From NCBI GenBank assembly GCA_021372615.1, contig JAJFUB010000070.1, positions 1-52,441 of the forward strand: a stretch of 52,441 nt of DNA, in the 5' to 3' direction. This document shows positions 38,830-46,650 of this stretch, in pieces (within the stretch, counting starts at the first letter, position 1; each line of letters opens with the position of its first letter). Both the position numbers and the translations under genes were made by a program. The notes under the pieces are model-generated. The model did no database searches, was not told the DNA's origin, and saw only the letters and a list, made by a program, of their open reading frames with translations. Source of the stretch: a bacterium (GTDB taxonomy: Bacteria > Armatimonadota > Zipacnadia > Zipacnadales > UBA11051).

Positions 38830-39489
38830 GTGAGGAAGGGATTCACGCTGATTGAGTTGCTGGTCGTGATTGCCATCATCGCGATCTTGGCCGCGATTCT
38901 GTTCCCCGTGTTCGCCAAGGCACGTGAGAAGGCTCGCCAGTCCAGCTGCCTGTCGAATCTGAAGCAACTGGGCCTGGCAGCGATGCAGTATGCTCAGGAC
39001 TATGACGAGCGGATCGTGAAGTGCTACCTGTACTGGAGTTCGACGTTCAGCCAGACGCAGTACCGCTGGTACTGGCAGGCCAACAGCAACCCGGGCATGC
39101 TATGGCCGTACGTCAAGAACAGCCAGGTCTTCATGTGCCCGAGCGTCGGCAAGCACGCCTACGGCATCAGCTTCGTCGGCCAGACTGGCGCGGACCCGGG
39201 GACGGCGATTGGCACCATCCAGAGCCCGGCTGAGACGGTGCTGTTTGCCGACTCCCTCCTCTGGCACGGAGACCCCGATACCGGTATGGGCGGAGATAGC
39301 GTCCCCGGCAAGGTCTTCAAGTACTCGGACCGCAACAGTGCCGGGCGTCTGACCAGCGGCTGCTATGGCGGCGGGTTGGTGGCCAAGCGACACAACGATG
39401 GCGCCAACTTCGCCTTCTGCGACGGGCACTGCAAGTGGATGCAGCCCATGGCCACCGAGAGCCCGGTCAACATGTGGGACCTGCTGTAG
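38830..39489 (+). CDS. Type IV prepilin-like DUF1559 protein
   Basis: 219-residue protein with the N-terminal cleavage/methylation motif [20 protein letters not shown] preceded by R-K, so a prepilin peptidase should cut before Phe. It is followed by [19 protein letters not shown] and AQDYDE, the pattern typical of DUF1559 pseudopilin proteins in Armatimonadota, Planctomycetes and relatives. The C-terminal domain has [12 protein letters not shown]. Such proteins may form type II secretion pseudopili or envelope structures. GTG start with GGAGGTGA at ideal spacing. A second DUF1559 protein lies 1.7 kb away on the other strand. Confidence 0.92.
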
Positions 39490-39647: not shown

Positions 39648-41219
39648 ATGCCGGACGGGATGGAACCTGCTGAGCGGTCTGGGCCTCGGCGCCCTCCCGC
39701 CCCCCCGGCGCGCGCCGACCGCCTGCTCAACCTGACGGTGGCCCTCGCGCTCTCGGCCGTCATCCTGCATCGCCTGTCGCTCCCCGTGGCCGATGTGGAT
39801 ATCTGGCACGAGATGGCGCTCGCCCGAGAGATCGTGACGACCGGCCACGTCCCGGCCCACGATAGCTTCGCGTACACGCCCACGCTGCCTGTCGTCGTGC
39901 ACCATGAGTGGGGCGCGGGCATGATCGCCTACGCCGCCAGCCGTCTGGGGGGCGCGGCCGGTGTGCTGATCCTGCGCCTGGCCCTGATTGCCGGGCTGTG
40001 CTGGGTGTGCTGGCTGGCGGCGACACGCCGGGGCGCCACGATGAGTTTGCTGCGCTTCGCGGCCATCGTGGCCGTACTGCTGGCCGACGTCGGCTTCGCC
40101 ACCGTTCGCGCGCAGCAATACTCGTTCCTGTGCGCCGCTTTCCTGCTGTTGTGGCTCGACCGCGACCGCACGGGGGACCGCCGCTGGGTGTGGCTGTGGC
40201 TGCCGCTCACTGTGCTGTGGGCGAACGTCCACGCCGGCGTGACGTTCGGCGTGGGGCTGCTGGCGGCCCACACCGCGGAGCAATGGCTGCGTCGTCGCCC
40301 GGTGGGGCATCTGGTGGGGATGGGCGCGGCCATGGTGGGGCTGATGGCCGTCAACCCCTGGGGGTGGCACTACTACAGCTACCTATGGCGCGCCACGACG
40401 ATGCCGCGTCCCCTGGTGACGGAATGGGCGCCGCTGCTGGAGGCAGCCGATCCGGCCCGCCTGGCGCTCTTCGTGGCTTCGCTGCTGGTGGCGGGCTGGA
40501 CCGTCTGGCGGACCGGGTGGCGGCGCTTCGAGGGCCTGCTGGTCCTGCTCCTGACGGCCGCCGCGGCGCTGGACTCATATCGCCTCGTCTGCTTCTACGC
40601 CATCGCGTGGTTCGTCTATGTGCCGCCTGTCCTGGAAGCTGAACTGCGCCAACGGCCAGGGGGCAGGGCGCTGCTGGAGAGCTACAGCCCGCGCGACCGG
40701 ATGCAGTTCGTCGTCTGGGGTTCCGTCGCAGTGCTATTCGTCGGTCTGGCCGCAGGACAGCAGCCCTGGCGGCTGCGTGTGCCCGGCACACCGCTGGTAG
40801 GTGAGTGGCTGCCCGTGTATCCAGTCGGCGCAGTGGACTACCTCGCGGAACACGGGTACCACGGTAACGTGCTGACGTGCTTCGAGTGGGCGGCGTACGT
40901 CTCCTGGCGGTTGTCCCCGGCGGTGAAGGTCTCCTTCGACAGCCGCTACGAGGTGGCGTACCCCCCGGGCGCGCTGGAGCGGGACAAGGCCATCTATGCC
41001 GCTGCTCCGGGGTGGCCGCAACTGCTGCTGGAGTACGGCACCACCGCCGCGATCGTGCAGCGCGACCAGCCCCTCGCGGCGGCTCTGCCGGGCCCGACGG
41101 GGTGGCGGCGGGTCTACCGGGACGAGGTCTTCGAGGTCTGGGCGCCGGTCGGGACACCGGGCCTGCCGCCAGGCGAGGTGATACACCGGGCCCGGGATGG
41201 AGTGTTCCCCGGCGGCTAG
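39648..41219 (+). CDS. Polytopic membrane protein of unknown function
   Basis: 523-residue protein with many membrane helices (for example [64 protein letters not shown]). Early acidic residues ([14 protein letters not shown]) and a C-terminal soluble domain ([27 protein letters not shown]) recall the layout of GT39/GT-C-like membrane glycosyltransferases, but I see no firm catalytic signature. Relatives occur in Armatimonadota and Planctomycetes. The stop codon shares CTAG with that of the convergent prepilin gene. The function is unknown; an envelope-glycan role is a guess. Confidence 0.75.
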
Positions 41220-41824
41220 TCTTCCGCCAGCGAGAAGTACCGGTAGGTCAGCGCCGTCGGCTTGTACCACTTGGCGTGGCCATCCAGGAAACAGGCGTTC
41301 AGGCCGTTGTTGTGGATGTTGTACATGGGGTCGGTCGGGATCTGGTAGGGCCGATCATCGTTGCCGTCAATGCCGCCGTCGTCCTCCGTCGCATCGAACA
41401 GCACTAGCGTCTCAGCCGGCACCACCGCCCGGGCCAGCGCCAGCCCCGAGTACCCCAACTCCCCTGCGTTGAAGCCGTAGCTCCACCAGCGCCCCGAGGC
41501 CGTCGGTGGCGCTGTGTAGCCTGAGTCCGACGGGCACTTGAGGATCTGGTAGTTCTTGACGTAGGGGTTCAGGCGCATCTGGAAGGTGTACCAGCGCCAG
41601 TCGGTGATGCCCGAATCGCCGTCATCGTGCGGCGGGATCATCTCGTCGTAGTCCTGGGCGTAGGACATGACCGCGGTGCCCAGTTGGCGCACGTTGGAGA
41701 GACAGGCCGTCTGGCGCGCCTTCTCCCGCGCCTTGGCGAACACCGGGAAGAGAATGGCGGCCAGGATGGCAATGATGGCGATGACGACCAACAGCTCGAT
41801 CAGGGTGAAACCGTGCCGTGCCAT
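41216..41824 (-). CDS. Type IV prepilin-like DUF1559 protein
   Basis: 202-residue homologue of the prepilin at 38830. It opens [20 protein letters not shown], then [19 protein letters not shown], with AQDYDE and a C-terminal DGHAKWY. The central part ([40 protein letters not shown]) differs, so the two are paralogs rather than copies. Its ATG overlaps nothing. The stop shares four bases with the convergent membrane-protein gene. Confidence 0.92.
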
Positions 41825-42011
41825 GGTACACCTCGCGCTTCGTCTGGTATCGCGGCGCAGGGCTGCCTGCCGTCGGTGTTACCTTCGTGACGCACTTGCC
41901 CGGTACCTGCCGCAAGAGCCGCGTCATCCCCGCAGATCTGAAGGGCAGCCGAGGCGAGAGTTAGGGCGATCGAAACGCCCCGCAGACACGGGTCAAACGC
42001 GCCTTCCTCGG

Positions 42012-42040
42012 TTGACAAAGCCCCGTCGCCGCCATATACT
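42012..42040 (+). promoter_or_regulatory. Consensus sigma70-type promoter upstream of ffh
   Basis: A perfect TTGACA (42012-42017), exactly 17 bases, TATACT (42035-42040). This is the best promoter in the window. Transcription should start near 42047, leaving a leader of about 165 bases before the ffh start at 42212. The stretch 41825-42011 before it holds no gene that I can see. Confidence 0.8.
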
Positions 42041-42056
42041 CATAGTCCGTCTTCGA

Positions 42057-42110
42057 CCGTAGCAGCTACGGGAGGCCGGATCGCAGGTGTTGATCCGGCT
42101 TCGTTCTTTT
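42057..42110 (+). promoter_or_regulatory. Structured leader with internal terminator-like hairpin before ffh
   Basis: Two hairpins follow the predicted start: CCGTAG-CAG-CTACGG (42057-42071), then GCCGGATC, a nine-base loop, GATCCGGC (42075-42099), extended by A-T and G-T pairs and followed by TTCGTTCTTTT. The second has the form of an intrinsic terminator about 100 bases upstream of the ffh start. It is either an attenuator for the ffh operon or the 3' end of a short independent RNA of about 60 bases. A third possible stem (GGAGGCT...AGCCTCC, 42114-42146) follows. Confidence 0.6.
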
Positions 42111-42211
42111 GGCGGAGGCTCGCATCCACTGCACACGCAAGCCTCCACCCGAGCAACCTGCGGGCGGCGCCTGCGCCGTACCGCCGTGTTTGCGTGCATG
42201 TTGCCTGTCAC

Positions 42212-43546
42212 ATGTTTGAGTCACTGACCGATAAGCTACAGGCCGCCTTTCGGCATCTTTCCAGCCATGGGAAGCTGACGGCCAAGGACGTCCGCAACGG
42301 GCTCAAAGAAGTCAACATGGCCCTGCTGGAAGCGGACGTCAACTACCAGGTCGTCAAGCAGTTCGTCCGCGATGTGACGGACGAGGCCCTGGGCGAGAAG
42401 ATCCTGTCAGGCCTCAACCCCACCCAGCAGATCGTGGGGATCGTGCACGAGAAGCTGGTGCACCTGCTGGGCGACGCCGCTGTGCCGATCAAGCTGGCGT
42501 CCAAGCCACCCACCGTTGTGGTCATGGCCGGCCTGCAGGGCAGTGGCAAGACGACCACCGCGGGGAAACTCGGCCGGTTGTTTGTGCGGCAGGGACACCG
42601 CCCCTTGCTCGTGGCGGCGGACATCTACCGCCCGGCGGCCATCGAGCAGTTGCGCCAGGTGGGCGCTGGCGCCGAGATCGACGTCTTCACGCTGGAGGGC
42701 GCCAACCCGGTCGAGATTGCCCGGGCCGGCGCGACGCACGCGGCGAACCACAACTTTGACGTCGTCATCATTGACACCGCCGGACGCCTGCAGATTGACG
42801 AACAGATGATGCAGGAAGTCCAGGACATCGAGCGCTCCTTCGCCCAGACCGAGACGCTGCTGGTCATTGACGCCATGACCGGGCAGGATGCCATCAACGT
42901 CGCGGCGGAGTTCGGCGACAAGCTCAAGCTCGACGGCCTGGTCCTGACCAAGCTGGACGGCGACGCTCGCGGCGGCGCGGCCCTGTCGGCGCGGGCCGTG
43001 ACCGGCGTCCCCATCAAGTTCGTGGGCGTGGGCGAGAAGCTCGACGGGCTCGAGGTCTTCCATCCCGACCGCATGGCCCAGCGCATCCTGGGCATGGGCG
43101 ATGTCCTGACGCTGATCGAGAAGGCCCAGCAGGCCGTTGACGGCGAGCAGGCGCTCAAGCTCCAGAAGCGGATGCTGTCGGCGAAGTTCGACCTGGAGGA
43201 CTTCCGCGCGCATCTGGCCAACGTCCGCAAGATGGGGCCGCTCGACCAGGTCATGAAGCTCATCCCCGGCGCCCAGAAGATGATGGGCAACATGATGCCG
43301 GAGGACTTCGACGAGCGCGAGATGGACGTCGTGGACGCCATCATCTCCTCGATGACCAAACAGGAGCGGCGTAACCCGGATGTTCTCAACGCCAGCCGCA
43401 AGCGGCGCATCGCCGCCGGCAGCGGCACCAGCGTGCAGGACATCAACATCCTGCTCAAGCAGTTCCGCGAGCTGGCGAAGATGATGAAAGCGATGTCGTC
43501 GGGCAAGCCGGTCAACATCGGCGGCATGCGCATCGGCAGGATGTAA
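42212..43546 (+). CDS. ffh: Signal recognition particle protein Ffh
   Basis: 444-residue SRP54/Ffh, the GTPase that binds signal sequences and SRP RNA for co-translational membrane targeting. N domain: MFESLTDKLQAAFRHLSSHG. G domain: GLQGSGKTTTAGKL (P-loop), DTAGRLQID, TKLDGDARGG and GVGEKLDGLEVFHP. M domain: methionine-containing helices from about residue 320 (RMLSAKFDLEDFRAHL, GAQKMMGNMMPEDF), ending KMMKAMSSGKP. The ATG at 42212 was chosen because family homology starts there; a GTG at 42194 would add six residues. No clear Shine-Dalgarno site is seen upstream. It leads the ffh-rpsP-khpA-ylqD-rimM-trmD-rplS operon. Confidence 0.97.
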   Translation: MFESLTDKLQAAFRHLSSHGKLTAKDVRNGLKEVNMALLEADVNYQVVKQFVRDVTDEALGEKILSGLNPTQQIVGIVHEKLVHLLGDAAVPIKLASKPPTVVVMAGLQGSGKTTTAGKLGRLFVRQGHRPLLVAADIYRPAAIEQLRQVGAGAEIDVFTLEGANPVEIARAGATHAANHNFDVVIIDTAGRLQIDEQMMQEVQDIERSFAQTETLLVIDAMTGQDAINVAAEFGDKLKLDGLVLTKLDGDARGGAALSARAVTGVPIKFVGVGEKLDGLEVFHPDRMAQRILGMGDVLTLIEKAQQAVDGEQALKLQKRMLSAKFDLEDFRAHLANVRKMGPLDQVMKLIPGAQKMMGNMMPEDFDEREMDVVDAIISSMTKQERRNPDVLNASRKRRIAAGSGTSVQDINILLKQFRELAKMMKAMSSGKPVNIGGMRIGRM

Positions 43547-43547
43547 C

Positions 43548-43565
43548 GGCGCGCGTCATCGCGCC
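43548..43565. repeat. REP-like palindrome directly after ffh stop
   Basis: GGCGCGCG-TC-ATCGCGCC, a two-base variant of the palindrome found after khpA and in the ispDF-acnA spacer. It begins one base after the ffh TAA stop. A further small palindrome, GGCGCG-CAA-CGCGCC, lies at 43588-43602. Confidence 0.6.
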
Positions 43566-43623
43566 ATGGCCACATCGGTCGCACTGGGGCGCGCAACGCG
43601 CCTCCTTCACATATCTCGCCATC

Positions 43624-43640
43624 CCCCGGAGTGTCCGGGG
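43624..43640. repeat. Small hairpin before rpsP
   Basis: CCCCGGA, loop GTG, TCCGGGG, ending 28 bases before the rpsP start. It could influence the ffh/rpsP expression ratio. Confidence 0.5.
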
Positions 43641-43667
43641 CTGCCAGGGCGAAAGGGAGCAACCGAA

Positions 43668-43958
43668 TTGGCGACTCGCATTCGACTCAAGCGTACCGGA
43701 TCCAAGAAGCAGCCGTACTACCGCCTGGTCGTGGCCGACCAGCGCAGCCCGCGCGGCGGCCGCGCGATTGAGGACCTCGGCGTCTACGGCCCGGTCCTCA
43801 ACCCCCCGCTGGTGCAGGTCAACCAGGAGCGCGTGCTCCACTGGCTGATGCAGGGCGCACAGCCCTCGGACACCGCCCGCTCGATCCTGTCGAAGCTGGG
43901 CATCATGGCCGCCTTTGCCGAGGCGCAGAAGGCGCGCAAGGCAGCGAAGACGGAGTAG
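43668..43958 (+). CDS. rpsP: 30S ribosomal protein S16
   Basis: 96-residue S16. The start ATRIRLKRTGSKKQPYYRLV is the family signature, then ADQRSPRGGRAIEDLGVYGP. The tail is short and Ala/Lys-rich. The TTG at 43668 was chosen because homology begins there and AAAGGGAG lies eight bases upstream; an upstream ATG at 43566 would add 34 residues covering an intergenic palindrome. It is second in the ffh operon. Confidence 0.96.
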   Translation: MATRIRLKRTGSKKQPYYRLVVADQRSPRGGRAIEDLGVYGPVLNPPLVQVNQERVLHWLMQGAQPSDTARSILSKLGIMAAFAEAQKARKAAKTE

Positions 43959-43971
43959 CGAGCGTGGCCAT

Positions 43972-43993
43972 GCGCGCGTGGGGACACGCGCGC
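43972..43993. repeat. Perfect hairpin between rpsP and khpA
   Basis: GCGCGCGTG, loop GGGA, CACGCGCGC. It has a nine-base-pair stem 13 bases after the rpsP stop, without a T-run. It may protect the upstream mRNA segment. Confidence 0.6.
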
Positions 43994-44051
43994 CCACGTG
44001 GTGACATTGGCGGCCACGCGGAGCAACCATACCCATGGACTGGGGCCGGAT

Positions 44052-44282
44052 ATGAACGAATTGGTTGAGTACATGGTCAAGTCCCTCGTGGACGACCCGG
44101 CCAAGGTGCACGTCAACCAGATCGAGGGCCAGGGCGTCACGATCTATGAGGTCTCAGTGGCGCCGAACGACCTGGGCCGCGTGATCGGCCGCCATGGCCG
44201 GATCGCCAACGCACTGCGCACGGTCGCCAAGGCCGCGGCCAGCAAGCACGACAGCCGGGTCACGATCGAGATCATGTCGTAG
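44052..44282 (+). CDS. khpA: KH-domain RNA-binding protein KhpA (YlqC)
   Basis: 76-residue KhpA, exactly family length. It has MNELVEYMVKSLVDDPAKV at the start and the GXXG loop in GRVIGRHGRIANALR. KhpA with KhpB binds RNA and affects cell-wall synthesis and division in Gram-positive bacteria. The ATG at 44052 replaces an upstream start (43998) that lacks family homology. The TAG stop forms the first bases of a REP-like repeat. Confidence 0.95.
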   Translation: MNELVEYMVKSLVDDPAKVHVNQIEGQGVTIYEVSVAPNDLGRVIGRHGRIANALRTVAKAAASKHDSRVTIEIMS

Positions 44283-44283
44283 C

Positions 44284-44301
44284 GGCGCGATTCATCGCGC
44301 C
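44284..44301. repeat. REP-like palindrome after khpA
   Basis: GGCGCGAT-TC-ATCGCGCC, a perfect 8-bp stem. With the preceding T-A-G-C it forms the unit TAGCGGCGCGATTCATCGCG found again near 50250. The khpA stop codon is the TAG of this unit. Confidence 0.75.
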
Positions 44302-44394
44302 GCGCACAATCGAGCATCAGGGACGGGGACAGACCCCCGTGGGCGCGCCGCGCCCGTCATGTTGGGGTCAGTCTCCCCTCGTTGGAGGCGGATG

Positions 44395-44880
44395 ATGGGC
44401 GTTCAAGTCAAGCGGACGGTGATCCTGCGGGCCATCGTCACCGACGAACTCAAGCAGCAGGTCAGCGACGAGTTGCAGGGAGCGGCGGATGAGATCGAGC
44501 AGCGCGTACAGCAGCTCGACTTCTCCACCAAGGCCTACATCACGGACCTGCAGCGGGCCGACCTGCAGCGCGCCATGGCGGTGCGCAAGCAGATCGAGGC
44601 CGAGAAGCAGAAGCAGAACGAACTGCGCGACGCACTGCTGGAGCGCAAGGCCCAGGTTGCCGTCCTCCAGAACGGCCAGGAGGTCATCCGCGGCACGCTC
44701 GAGAGCTACGTGGAGATCAACGAGGGCGACGATCTCTCCGTCCTGCTGGGCGGCACCGAGATTGTGACCAAGGACGGCATCGTCATCGAAATCCGCCAGC
44801 GCAGGCCGGAGGAGATCGTCGAGGCCGAGGAGACACCACTGCTGGTCACGCCGTCCCATGAGCCGTCACGCGAGCAGTGA
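44395..44880 (+). CDS. ylqD: YlqD-like protein
   Basis: 161-residue protein of the YlqD family (PF11068). It starts GVQVKRTVILRAIVTDELKQ, has a coiled-coil middle rich in Gln, Glu and Lys (QQLDFSTKAYITDLQ, RKQIEAEKQKQNELRDALLE), and ends in a small beta domain (GTLESYVEINEGDDLSVLLG, TEIVTKDGIVIEIRQ). The function is unknown. It sits between khpA and rimM as in B. subtilis, which supports the call. GGAGG precedes two ATGs, 44392 and 44395; the second has better spacing. It overlaps rimM by 23 bases. Confidence 0.88.
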   Translation: MGVQVKRTVILRAIVTDELKQQVSDELQGAADEIEQRVQQLDFSTKAYITDLQRADLQRAMAVRKQIEAEKQKQNELRDALLERKAQVAVLQNGQEVIRGTLESYVEINEGDDLSVLLGGTEIVTKDGIVIEIRQRRPEEIVEAEETPLLVTPSHEPSREQ

Positions 44881-45439
44881 GTATGACGTTCAGGTCGGTC
44901 GCGTCCTGGCTCCGCATGGCCTGCGCGGCCTCGTTCGCGTCCTGCCGCTGACTGACGTACCGGACCGTCATCGCACCTTGAAGCAAGTACTGGCGCGTGG
45001 GCCGGGACATCCTGGACCGGCCAGTGGGTCGTCCGGGACATCCGACCCCACGCGGCGCGAGCAGTTCCTGACTGTTGAGCGGGCTGAGCCCGCCCGGCAC
45101 GGCCTGTGGCTGGTCCGCTTCGAGGGCATTGAGGACCGGACGGCGGCCGAGAAGCTGCAGGGCGCCGAGCTGTTCATCCGCGATGAGGACCTCCCCCCCC
45201 TCCCGGAGGGGCGGTACTACATCCACCAGATCGTGGGCCTGCAGGTCCGCACGGTGGACGGGCGGGAACTTGGGCCGGTGACCGACGTGTTGCAGACCGG
45301 GGCCAATGACGTGTACGAGACGCCCGCCGGGTTGCTGCCGGCGACCGCCGAGGTCATCAAGCACATTGACCTGGAGGCGGGAACGATGCTGGTGGACCCG
45401 CTCCCAGGGATGATTGATGAGCCCGAAGATGCGGATTGA
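44858..45439 (+). CDS. rimM: 16S rRNA processing protein RimM
   Basis: 193-residue RimM, needed for 30S maturation around S19/h31-33. The N-terminal barrel has QVGRVLAPHGLRGLVRVLPLTD; the C-terminal PRC-barrel has PEGRYYIHQIVGLQVRTVDG and GANDVYET. An insertion rich in Gly/Pro/Ser (about residues 47-62) separates strands in the first domain. It is translationally coupled to both ylqD and trmD by overlaps. Confidence 0.93.
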   Translation: MSRHASSEYDVQVGRVLAPHGLRGLVRVLPLTDVPDRHRTLKQVLARGPGHPGPASGSSGTSDPTRREQFLTVERAEPARHGLWLVRFEGIEDRTAAEKLQGAELFIRDEDLPPLPEGRYYIHQIVGLQVRTVDGRELGPVTDVLQTGANDVYETPAGLLPATAEVIKHIDLEAGTMLVDPLPGMIDEPEDAD

Positions 45440-46154
45440 CATCATCACCATCTTCCCGGATTTCGTGCGCCAGGCCCTGTCGTTCAGCATCGTTGGCCGG
45501 GCCATCGCGGCCGGGACCATTCAGGCCCGGGCGCATGACCTGCGGGACTACACCCACGATGCGCACCGCACCGTGGACGACACCCCGTATGGCGGCGGGC
45601 CGGGGATGGTCATGAAGCCCGAGCCGTTCTTCGAGGCGGTGGAGGCCATCGCCGATCCGGAGCGGGCCCATGTGGTGCTGCTCACGCCGCAGGGGCGGTC
45701 GTTCGACCAGACGGTGGCGCGGTCGCTGTCGCAGCGAGAGCAGCTTGTCTTGCTGTGCGGTCACTACGAGGGTGTGGACGAGCGGGTCGCGACGTTGGCC
45801 CATGAGCAGATCTCGCTGGGCGATTTCGTCCTCACCGGCGCGGAGTTGCCGGCCCTGGTGGTGACCGATGCCGTCGTCCGGCTGTTGCCGGGTGTGCTGG
45901 GCAATGAAGCGTCGCCGCTGGACGAGAGTTTCAGCGGCTTGCTGGAGTATCCGCAGTATACGCGCCCCCCGGAGTACCGTGGGCTTTGTGCGCCCGAGGT
46001 GCTGACGGGGGGAGACCATGCGCAGGTGCGGCGCTGGCGGCGTCGTGAGGCGCTGAGACGCACACTGGAGCGGCGACCGGACTTGCTGGCGACCGCTGAA
46101 CTGAACGAAGAAGACTGGCGGCTGTTGCGCGAGCTGCAGGCCGCGGAAGATTGA
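45429..46154 (+). CDS. trmD: tRNA (guanine-N1)-methyltransferase TrmD
   Basis: 241-residue TrmD, which methylates G37 of tRNAs with S-adenosylmethionine. It starts [13 protein letters not shown]. The knot region shows [38 protein letters not shown] and [17 protein letters not shown], all family signatures. The ATG at 45429 lies inside the rimM end (11-base overlap); an upstream ATG (45414) is less likely. It directly precedes rplS. Confidence 0.97.
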
Positions 46155-46164
46155 GGTGTTCCTG

Positions 46165-46650
46165 ATGATCAAAGCCCAACTCGAGTACGTCGCGAGCAAG
46201 CACCTGAAGCAGGACCTGCCCGAGTTCGCCCCCGGCGACACTGTGCGCGTCAACGTGAAGGTCGTGGAGCGCGTCCGCAACCAGGACCGCACCCGCCTGC
46301 AGGCGTTCGAGGGCATCGTCATCGCCCGGCGCGGCAATGACATCAACGAGGAGTTCACGGTCCGCCGCGTTTCCCATGGCGTCGGCTGCGAGCGCACCTT
46401 CCCGATCCATTCGCCGGTCATTGACAGCGTGAACGTGGTCCGCCATGGCGACGTGCGCCGGGCCAAGCTGTACTACCTGCGCGACCGCGTCGGCAAGCGG
46501 GCCCGGGTCCGCGAGCGCGCGCGCCGGTCCAAGGAAGTCGAGGCCGCCGAGGCCGCCAAGGCGGCCGCCGCCGCCACGGCAGCGGCTGAGAGCGCGGCTC
46601 AGGCCGAGGACACCGCCAGCGACGCGCCGGAGACTTCGGCCGAGAGTTAG
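46165..46650 (+). CDS. rplS: 50S ribosomal protein L19
   Basis: 161-residue L19. Core: [49 protein letters not shown] and [19 protein letters not shown]. The core ends near residue 118; a tail of about 45 residues made mostly of Ala and Glu follows, longer than usual. The ATG at 46165 is preferred over a GTG at 46156 because GAGGTG lies six bases upstream and the family start is reached. Confidence 0.96.

Follow-up and report, generated by a model that had tools for sequence, protein, structure and literature searches.

The leader of the ffh operon raises the question of how transcription of this signal recognition particle (SRP) gene is controlled, and whether two hairpins noticed there by the initial annotation act as an attenuator, a sensor or a separate small RNA. 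The window, i.e., the whole 52,441-nucleotide stretch of DNA analysed, carries ffh, encoding the SRP GTPase, at positions 42212-43546 of the plus strand (TIGR00959, 573 bits; ATG at 42212). It is the first gene of an apparent operon that continues on the same strand, according to the ORF list and NCBIfam, with rpsP, a KH-domain protein gene, an unnamed ORF, rimM, trmD and rplS (43659-46650). No NCBIfam model matches the unnamed ORF (44266-44877), which separates the KH gene from rimM and may encode a YlqD-like protein. Upstream of ffh lie two pseudopilin-like genes (38830-39489 and 41216-41824) whose N-termini are near-identical. As of 2009, ffh had not been described as controlled at either the transcriptional or the translational level, according to the relevant part of Meyer et al. 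(PMC2704228), and a literature search for an ffh attenuator returned only the alphaproteobacterial ffh motif and leader discussed in that study.

The sigma-70-type promoter claimed for this leader was confirmed at 42012-42040 of the plus strand by pattern scan and by comparison with relatives, with TTGACA at 42012-42017, a 17-nucleotide spacer and TATACT at 42035-42040 (11 of 12 consensus bases). It is the sole exact match to TTGACA-N17-TATACT within the window, where two further sites match the promoter pattern with two mismatches (0.26 expected by chance on average when as many as two are allowed), and it is one of five exact matches in the 6.4 Mb genome, in which the reversed pattern does not occur. 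From the -10 position only, transcription is predicted to start about 7 nucleotides downstream, at 42047. Both leader hairpins fold as the initial annotation had described. The first (42057-42071, plus strand; CCGTAG-CAG-CTACGG) has six pairs, a CAG loop and a folding energy of -5.9 kcal/mol (z -3.1). The second (42072-42102, plus strand) pairs the arms 42072-42082 and 42092-42102, GAGGCCGGATC / GATCCGGCTTC, in 11 pairs around a loop of nine, with -19.4 kcal/mol and z -5.0, an energy that none of 200 shuffles equalled. Directly behind it stands the imperfect T tract GTTCTTTT (42103-42110), separated by 101 bases from the ffh ATG, as stated for this leader at the outset; the intervening GC-rich remainder of the 5' UTR (42111-42211) varies in length between relatives. 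The second hairpin thus has the GC-rich stem with a short loop and the immediately following U tract of an intrinsic terminator, although that tract is weak in several members. A pattern scan of positions 40000-44000 detected one terminator-like site, compared with 1.6 in shuffled sequences, so that the single sequence is not beyond chance and the case rests on conservation in relatives.

For this purpose, ffh was sought in 61 genomes, and then in 41 genomes from the order and 46 from the class. Four of the 41 genomes of the order have no readable ffh start (G003, with no ffh match at E <= 1e-100, and G015, G039 and G040, where it is cut off). Among the 37 with readable ffh upstream DNA, 36 carry TTGACA-N17/N18-TATAnT before the gene, the exception being G037, where a search of 1,400 nucleotides yielded none. 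A uniform detector, requiring a hairpin of -12 kcal/mol or lower with a T-rich tail within 110 nucleotides of the -10 element, was then applied to all sets. It was passed by 27 of the 37 ffh leaders tested, a set with 35 leaders from the order and two from its class (G032, found later, was left out), compared with 8 of the 84 other promoters that match TTGACA-N17-TATACT exactly (Fisher p 5e-12, which is a guide only because related genomes are not independent). Dinucleotide-shuffled ffh leaders passed in 69 of 370 cases and the reverse strands of the ffh leaders in 2 of 37. The detector sometimes takes a larger or neighbouring fold over the conserved stem, e.g., in G006, G008 and G031. The ten leaders that failed (G001, G018, G021, G022, G024, G025, G027, G009, G014 and G041) did so partly through T tails interrupted by G or C, such as GCGTGTTGC in G025 and TGTCGTGTCC in G018, and G031, which passes on another hairpin, has CGTGGTGCGG behind its conserved stem; tails of this type would be expected to terminate poorly. 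Among five class genomes from other families, G042 combines promoter, hairpin and TTTTTT, a T tail is missing behind the promoter and hairpin of G041, G043 and G045 lack the layout, and G044 is cut off. Of the genomes inspected from other classes, several have a promoter and a short leader, and none shows the layout when judged by eye. In this comparison, the layout is known only in one order and one genome of its class.

Stem position, tails and base changes were compared in hairpins drawn by eye in 34 leaders, three of the 37 (G030, G038 and G041) having no drawn stem and G032 again being left out. The 12-nucleotide tails behind these stems contain 200 T in 408 positions (49%, compared with 22% in the leaders and 89 +- 10 T in random windows), an enrichment possibly overstated because the stems were picked by eye. 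From the -10 element to the stem's 3' end the median distance is 64 nucleotides (10-90% range 60-75, n = 32), and loop lengths range from 7 to 32 nucleotides. For the pair count, 14 hairpins from families f1, f2 and f5 were aligned, families f3, f4 and f6 not being included and three rows from genus g3 of f1 having been dropped beforehand, since MAFFT placed their stems out of register. In this alignment 85.7% of cells are paired and both sides have changed in 4 of 12 pairs, a count not above the 3.5 obtained in shuffles because the core GGCCGG..CCGGCC, the stem consensus in the order, hardly varies. The covariation score was 0.311, compared with 0.227 +- 0.027 after shuffling, where one of 500 shuffles reached this value, and no more than 0.152 for slid partners. 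RNAalifold returned this stem within most families taken singly and also for f1, f2 and f5 combined. Other families place a different stem at the same position, namely GCCGCC..GGCGGC followed by TTTTTGTTG in f6, and CGCCGG..CCGGCG or the long-loop GCCGGCGT..ACGCCGGC in f3, which argues for selection on a stem with a T tract rather than on sequence; stems or tails are weak in f4 and some single genomes. Position, T tract, compensatory changes and conservation across the order thus speak well for an attenuator at the second hairpin, and the outcome that the initial annotation would have taken as a refutation, neither stem being conserved, does not hold for this stem. The first stem is missing from G001, the nearest relative, and an upstream stem with compensatory changes recurs only in genus g5 of f3.

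Two other identities for the hairpin were rejected or appear unlikely. It is not the terminator of the upstream gene, as gene 41216-41824 is divergent (minus strand) and the conserved promoter lies in between. A DNA operator formed by an inverted repeat, in place of an RNA stem, is unlikely given the frequent G-U pairs, the loops of 7 to 32 nucleotides and the one-strand T tract. A covariance model of the hairpin mostly returned ffh leaders as its top matches, by construction, with weaker matches elsewhere. Among seven non-ffh matches inspected, four lie between convergent genes, like ordinary terminators, one between same-strand genes and two overlap ORFs, indicating that the lineage places this structure at gene ends too.

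Taken together, the retained promoter, the detector contrast, the stem compensation and the terminator-like hairpins elsewhere make the second hairpin best read as a promoter-proximal intrinsic terminator, and it probably serves as an attenuator of the ffh-rpsP-KH-rimM-trmD-rplS operon. This arrangement suggests that transcription of the operon would be throttled at its very start. RNA polymerase would start near 42047 and, within about 65 nucleotides of a strong promoter, make the hairpin at 42072-42102; it would then either read through into ffh or stop near 42110, within the U tract, and release a short transcript some 60 nucleotides long. The sequences themselves show the promoter, the hairpin, the T tract, their conservation, the compensatory changes and the strand asymmetry; that transcription terminates here in the cell, to a partial extent and under the control of a factor, is what we infer. 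Since no built-in switch is apparent, the read-through fraction would most likely be set by the elongation machinery or by a trans-acting factor touching the hairpin (NusA-like, as proposed for the rimP-leader).

Hairpins in the leaders of other operons of the same order bear on how this reading compares with its rivals. In the rplU (L21) leaders (L309-L338, including G000:C165, L309, in the genome of the window), the detector passes 19 of 28 with a strong promoter, a count drawn from 30 loci under a looser promoter criterion; the three loci scanned (L309, L327 and L338) gave no Rfam match. In most members of the order, the yceD (DUF177) leaders (L279-L308, including G000:C113, L282) also have a short GC hairpin, CGCGGC..GCCGCG or GCCAGCC..GGCTGGC, which is visibly compensating and ends about 10-14 nucleotides before the ATG; a T tail is rare here, and 3 of 29 pass the detector. 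These cases hint that leader hairpins are a habit of translation operons in the order. Elsewhere in the same genome, at G000:C161:32625 (L146), an exact-consensus promoter is directly followed by GCGGGCC-TGCCAC-GGCCCGC-CTTTTG, and the gene behind it is one that we take to be secD-like.

A classical sensor attenuator, in which a riboswitch, leader peptide or alternative antiterminator would read the SRP or ribosome status mentioned by the initial annotation, is very improbable. In its favour is the tandem arrangement of hairpins. Two in a row are seen once more, in genus g5 of f3, with an upstream stem that compensatory changes support in two of six pairs (five sequences). However, the first stem is not shared with G001, and neither a conserved antiterminator with an upstream segment (mean z 0.10 +- 0.14) nor an upstream stem conserved order-wide (mean z -0.11 +- 0.20) was found in 31 leaders, namely those with enough upstream sequence among 32 (family f4 also left out, G032 absent). 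No ATG, GTG or TTG occurs between the start and the hairpin in G000 or G001, and relatives show no consistent leader peptide. An Rfam search of the leader yielded no family at threshold and, at E up to 10, two weak unrelated matches; no riboswitch or known ribosomal protein leader model matches. The leader thus offers no conserved aptamer-like part, SRP-RNA likeness, leader ORF or conserved alternative fold for sensing SRP or ribosome status. An SRP RNA hidden in the leader was rejected as well, the absence of its apical motif having been rightly noted: RF00169, found in 30 of 43 genomes searched, has no match in the leader, and the SRP RNA gene of this genome lies elsewhere (G000:C122:16185-16284, 68 bits), with no T tract directly behind it.

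The main rival is autoregulation by an operon product, in which S16, L19, the KH protein or Ffh would bind the leader and raise or lower termination; it is much less likely than the main reading. The presence of rpsP and rplS in the operon is in its favour, as are the hairpin and T tail in the leaders of rplU, a second ribosomal-protein operon in the order. The E. coli S10-operon leader, as described in the relevant part of PMC10931766, offers a precedent, with L4- and NusA-stimulated termination at a leader hairpin before a ribosomal protein operon. That leader, however, is long and highly structured and includes an L4 site, and nothing comparable is conserved in the ffh leaders, where only the terminator stem persists across families around loops of variable length and where no Rfam ribosomal-protein leader matches. 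Further down the scale, and unlikely, is an independent small RNA of about 60 nucleotides with its own promoter and terminator, either with incidental read-through into ffh or as a by-product with a trans function. The unit is compact from promoter to terminator, an ffh leader RNA appears among the Bartonella small RNAs in the part of PMC7717549 concerned, and 5'-UTR fragments of E. coli can act as sponges according to the corresponding part of PMC7815308. Yet the unit always stands before ffh, and the sequence from the start to the hairpin cannot be aligned between families, so that there is no conserved target-pairing region; outside the second hairpin nothing is conserved between families, its loop and flanks drifting, and the separate RNA first suggested for this locus, while possible, gains no support from the comparison. 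Less probable again is a role of the hairpin in 5'-UTR stability or in pausing, with hardly any termination. Several members have weak T tails, and most yceD hairpins lack a T tract; against this, the excess of T immediately after the stem in 34 leaders and the difference between the strands (27 of 37 versus 2 of 37) both point to termination.

For the promoter-proximal terminator, the closest described analogue is the rimP-leader, an attenuator before rimP-nusA-infB (Naville and Gautheret 2010, the relevant part of PMC2965389), whose authors favour NusA as the trans-acting factor in the passages concerned. In both leaders a short terminator carries a conserved GC motif in its stem and a T stretch, lies at a variable distance from the gene and stands upstream of an operon of translation and transcription genes, and both are without a larger conserved element or visible antiterminator. 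They differ in the downstream genes, here ffh, rpsP, KH, rimM, trmD and rplS, and in the stem motif, which is GGGc..gCCC in the rimP-leader and GGCCGG..CCGGCC in the ffh leader; on both grounds an identification of the ffh leader as a rimP-leader was rejected. The ffh motif or leader RNA of Alphaproteobacteria and 'Cand. Pelagibacter' (Meyer et al. 2009, PMC2704228) is likewise a hairpin in the ffh 5' region unlike the Ffh-binding part of 4.5S RNA, but it consists of one hairpin with a bulge whose cytosines are conserved, and the passages of that paper dealing with it give its function as unknown and assign it no terminator role. It was not matched in the Rfam search of the leader, although Rfam may not contain this motif.

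If the second hairpin does attenuate the operon, it would provide a direct control point for SRP together with S16, L19, RimM and TrmD, would extend sensor-less attenuators beyond rimP, and would account for a possible short abundant RNA at the ffh locus in transcriptomes. More speculatively, the translation and export operons of the order (ffh-rpsP-rimM-trmD-rplS, rplU and possibly others) might share a near-consensus promoter and an immediate sensor-less terminator, which one trans-acting factor of elongation or antitermination could recognise in all of them; this idea is doubtful at present, and, if true, it would imply growth-linked coordinate control of such operons through promoter-proximal termination.
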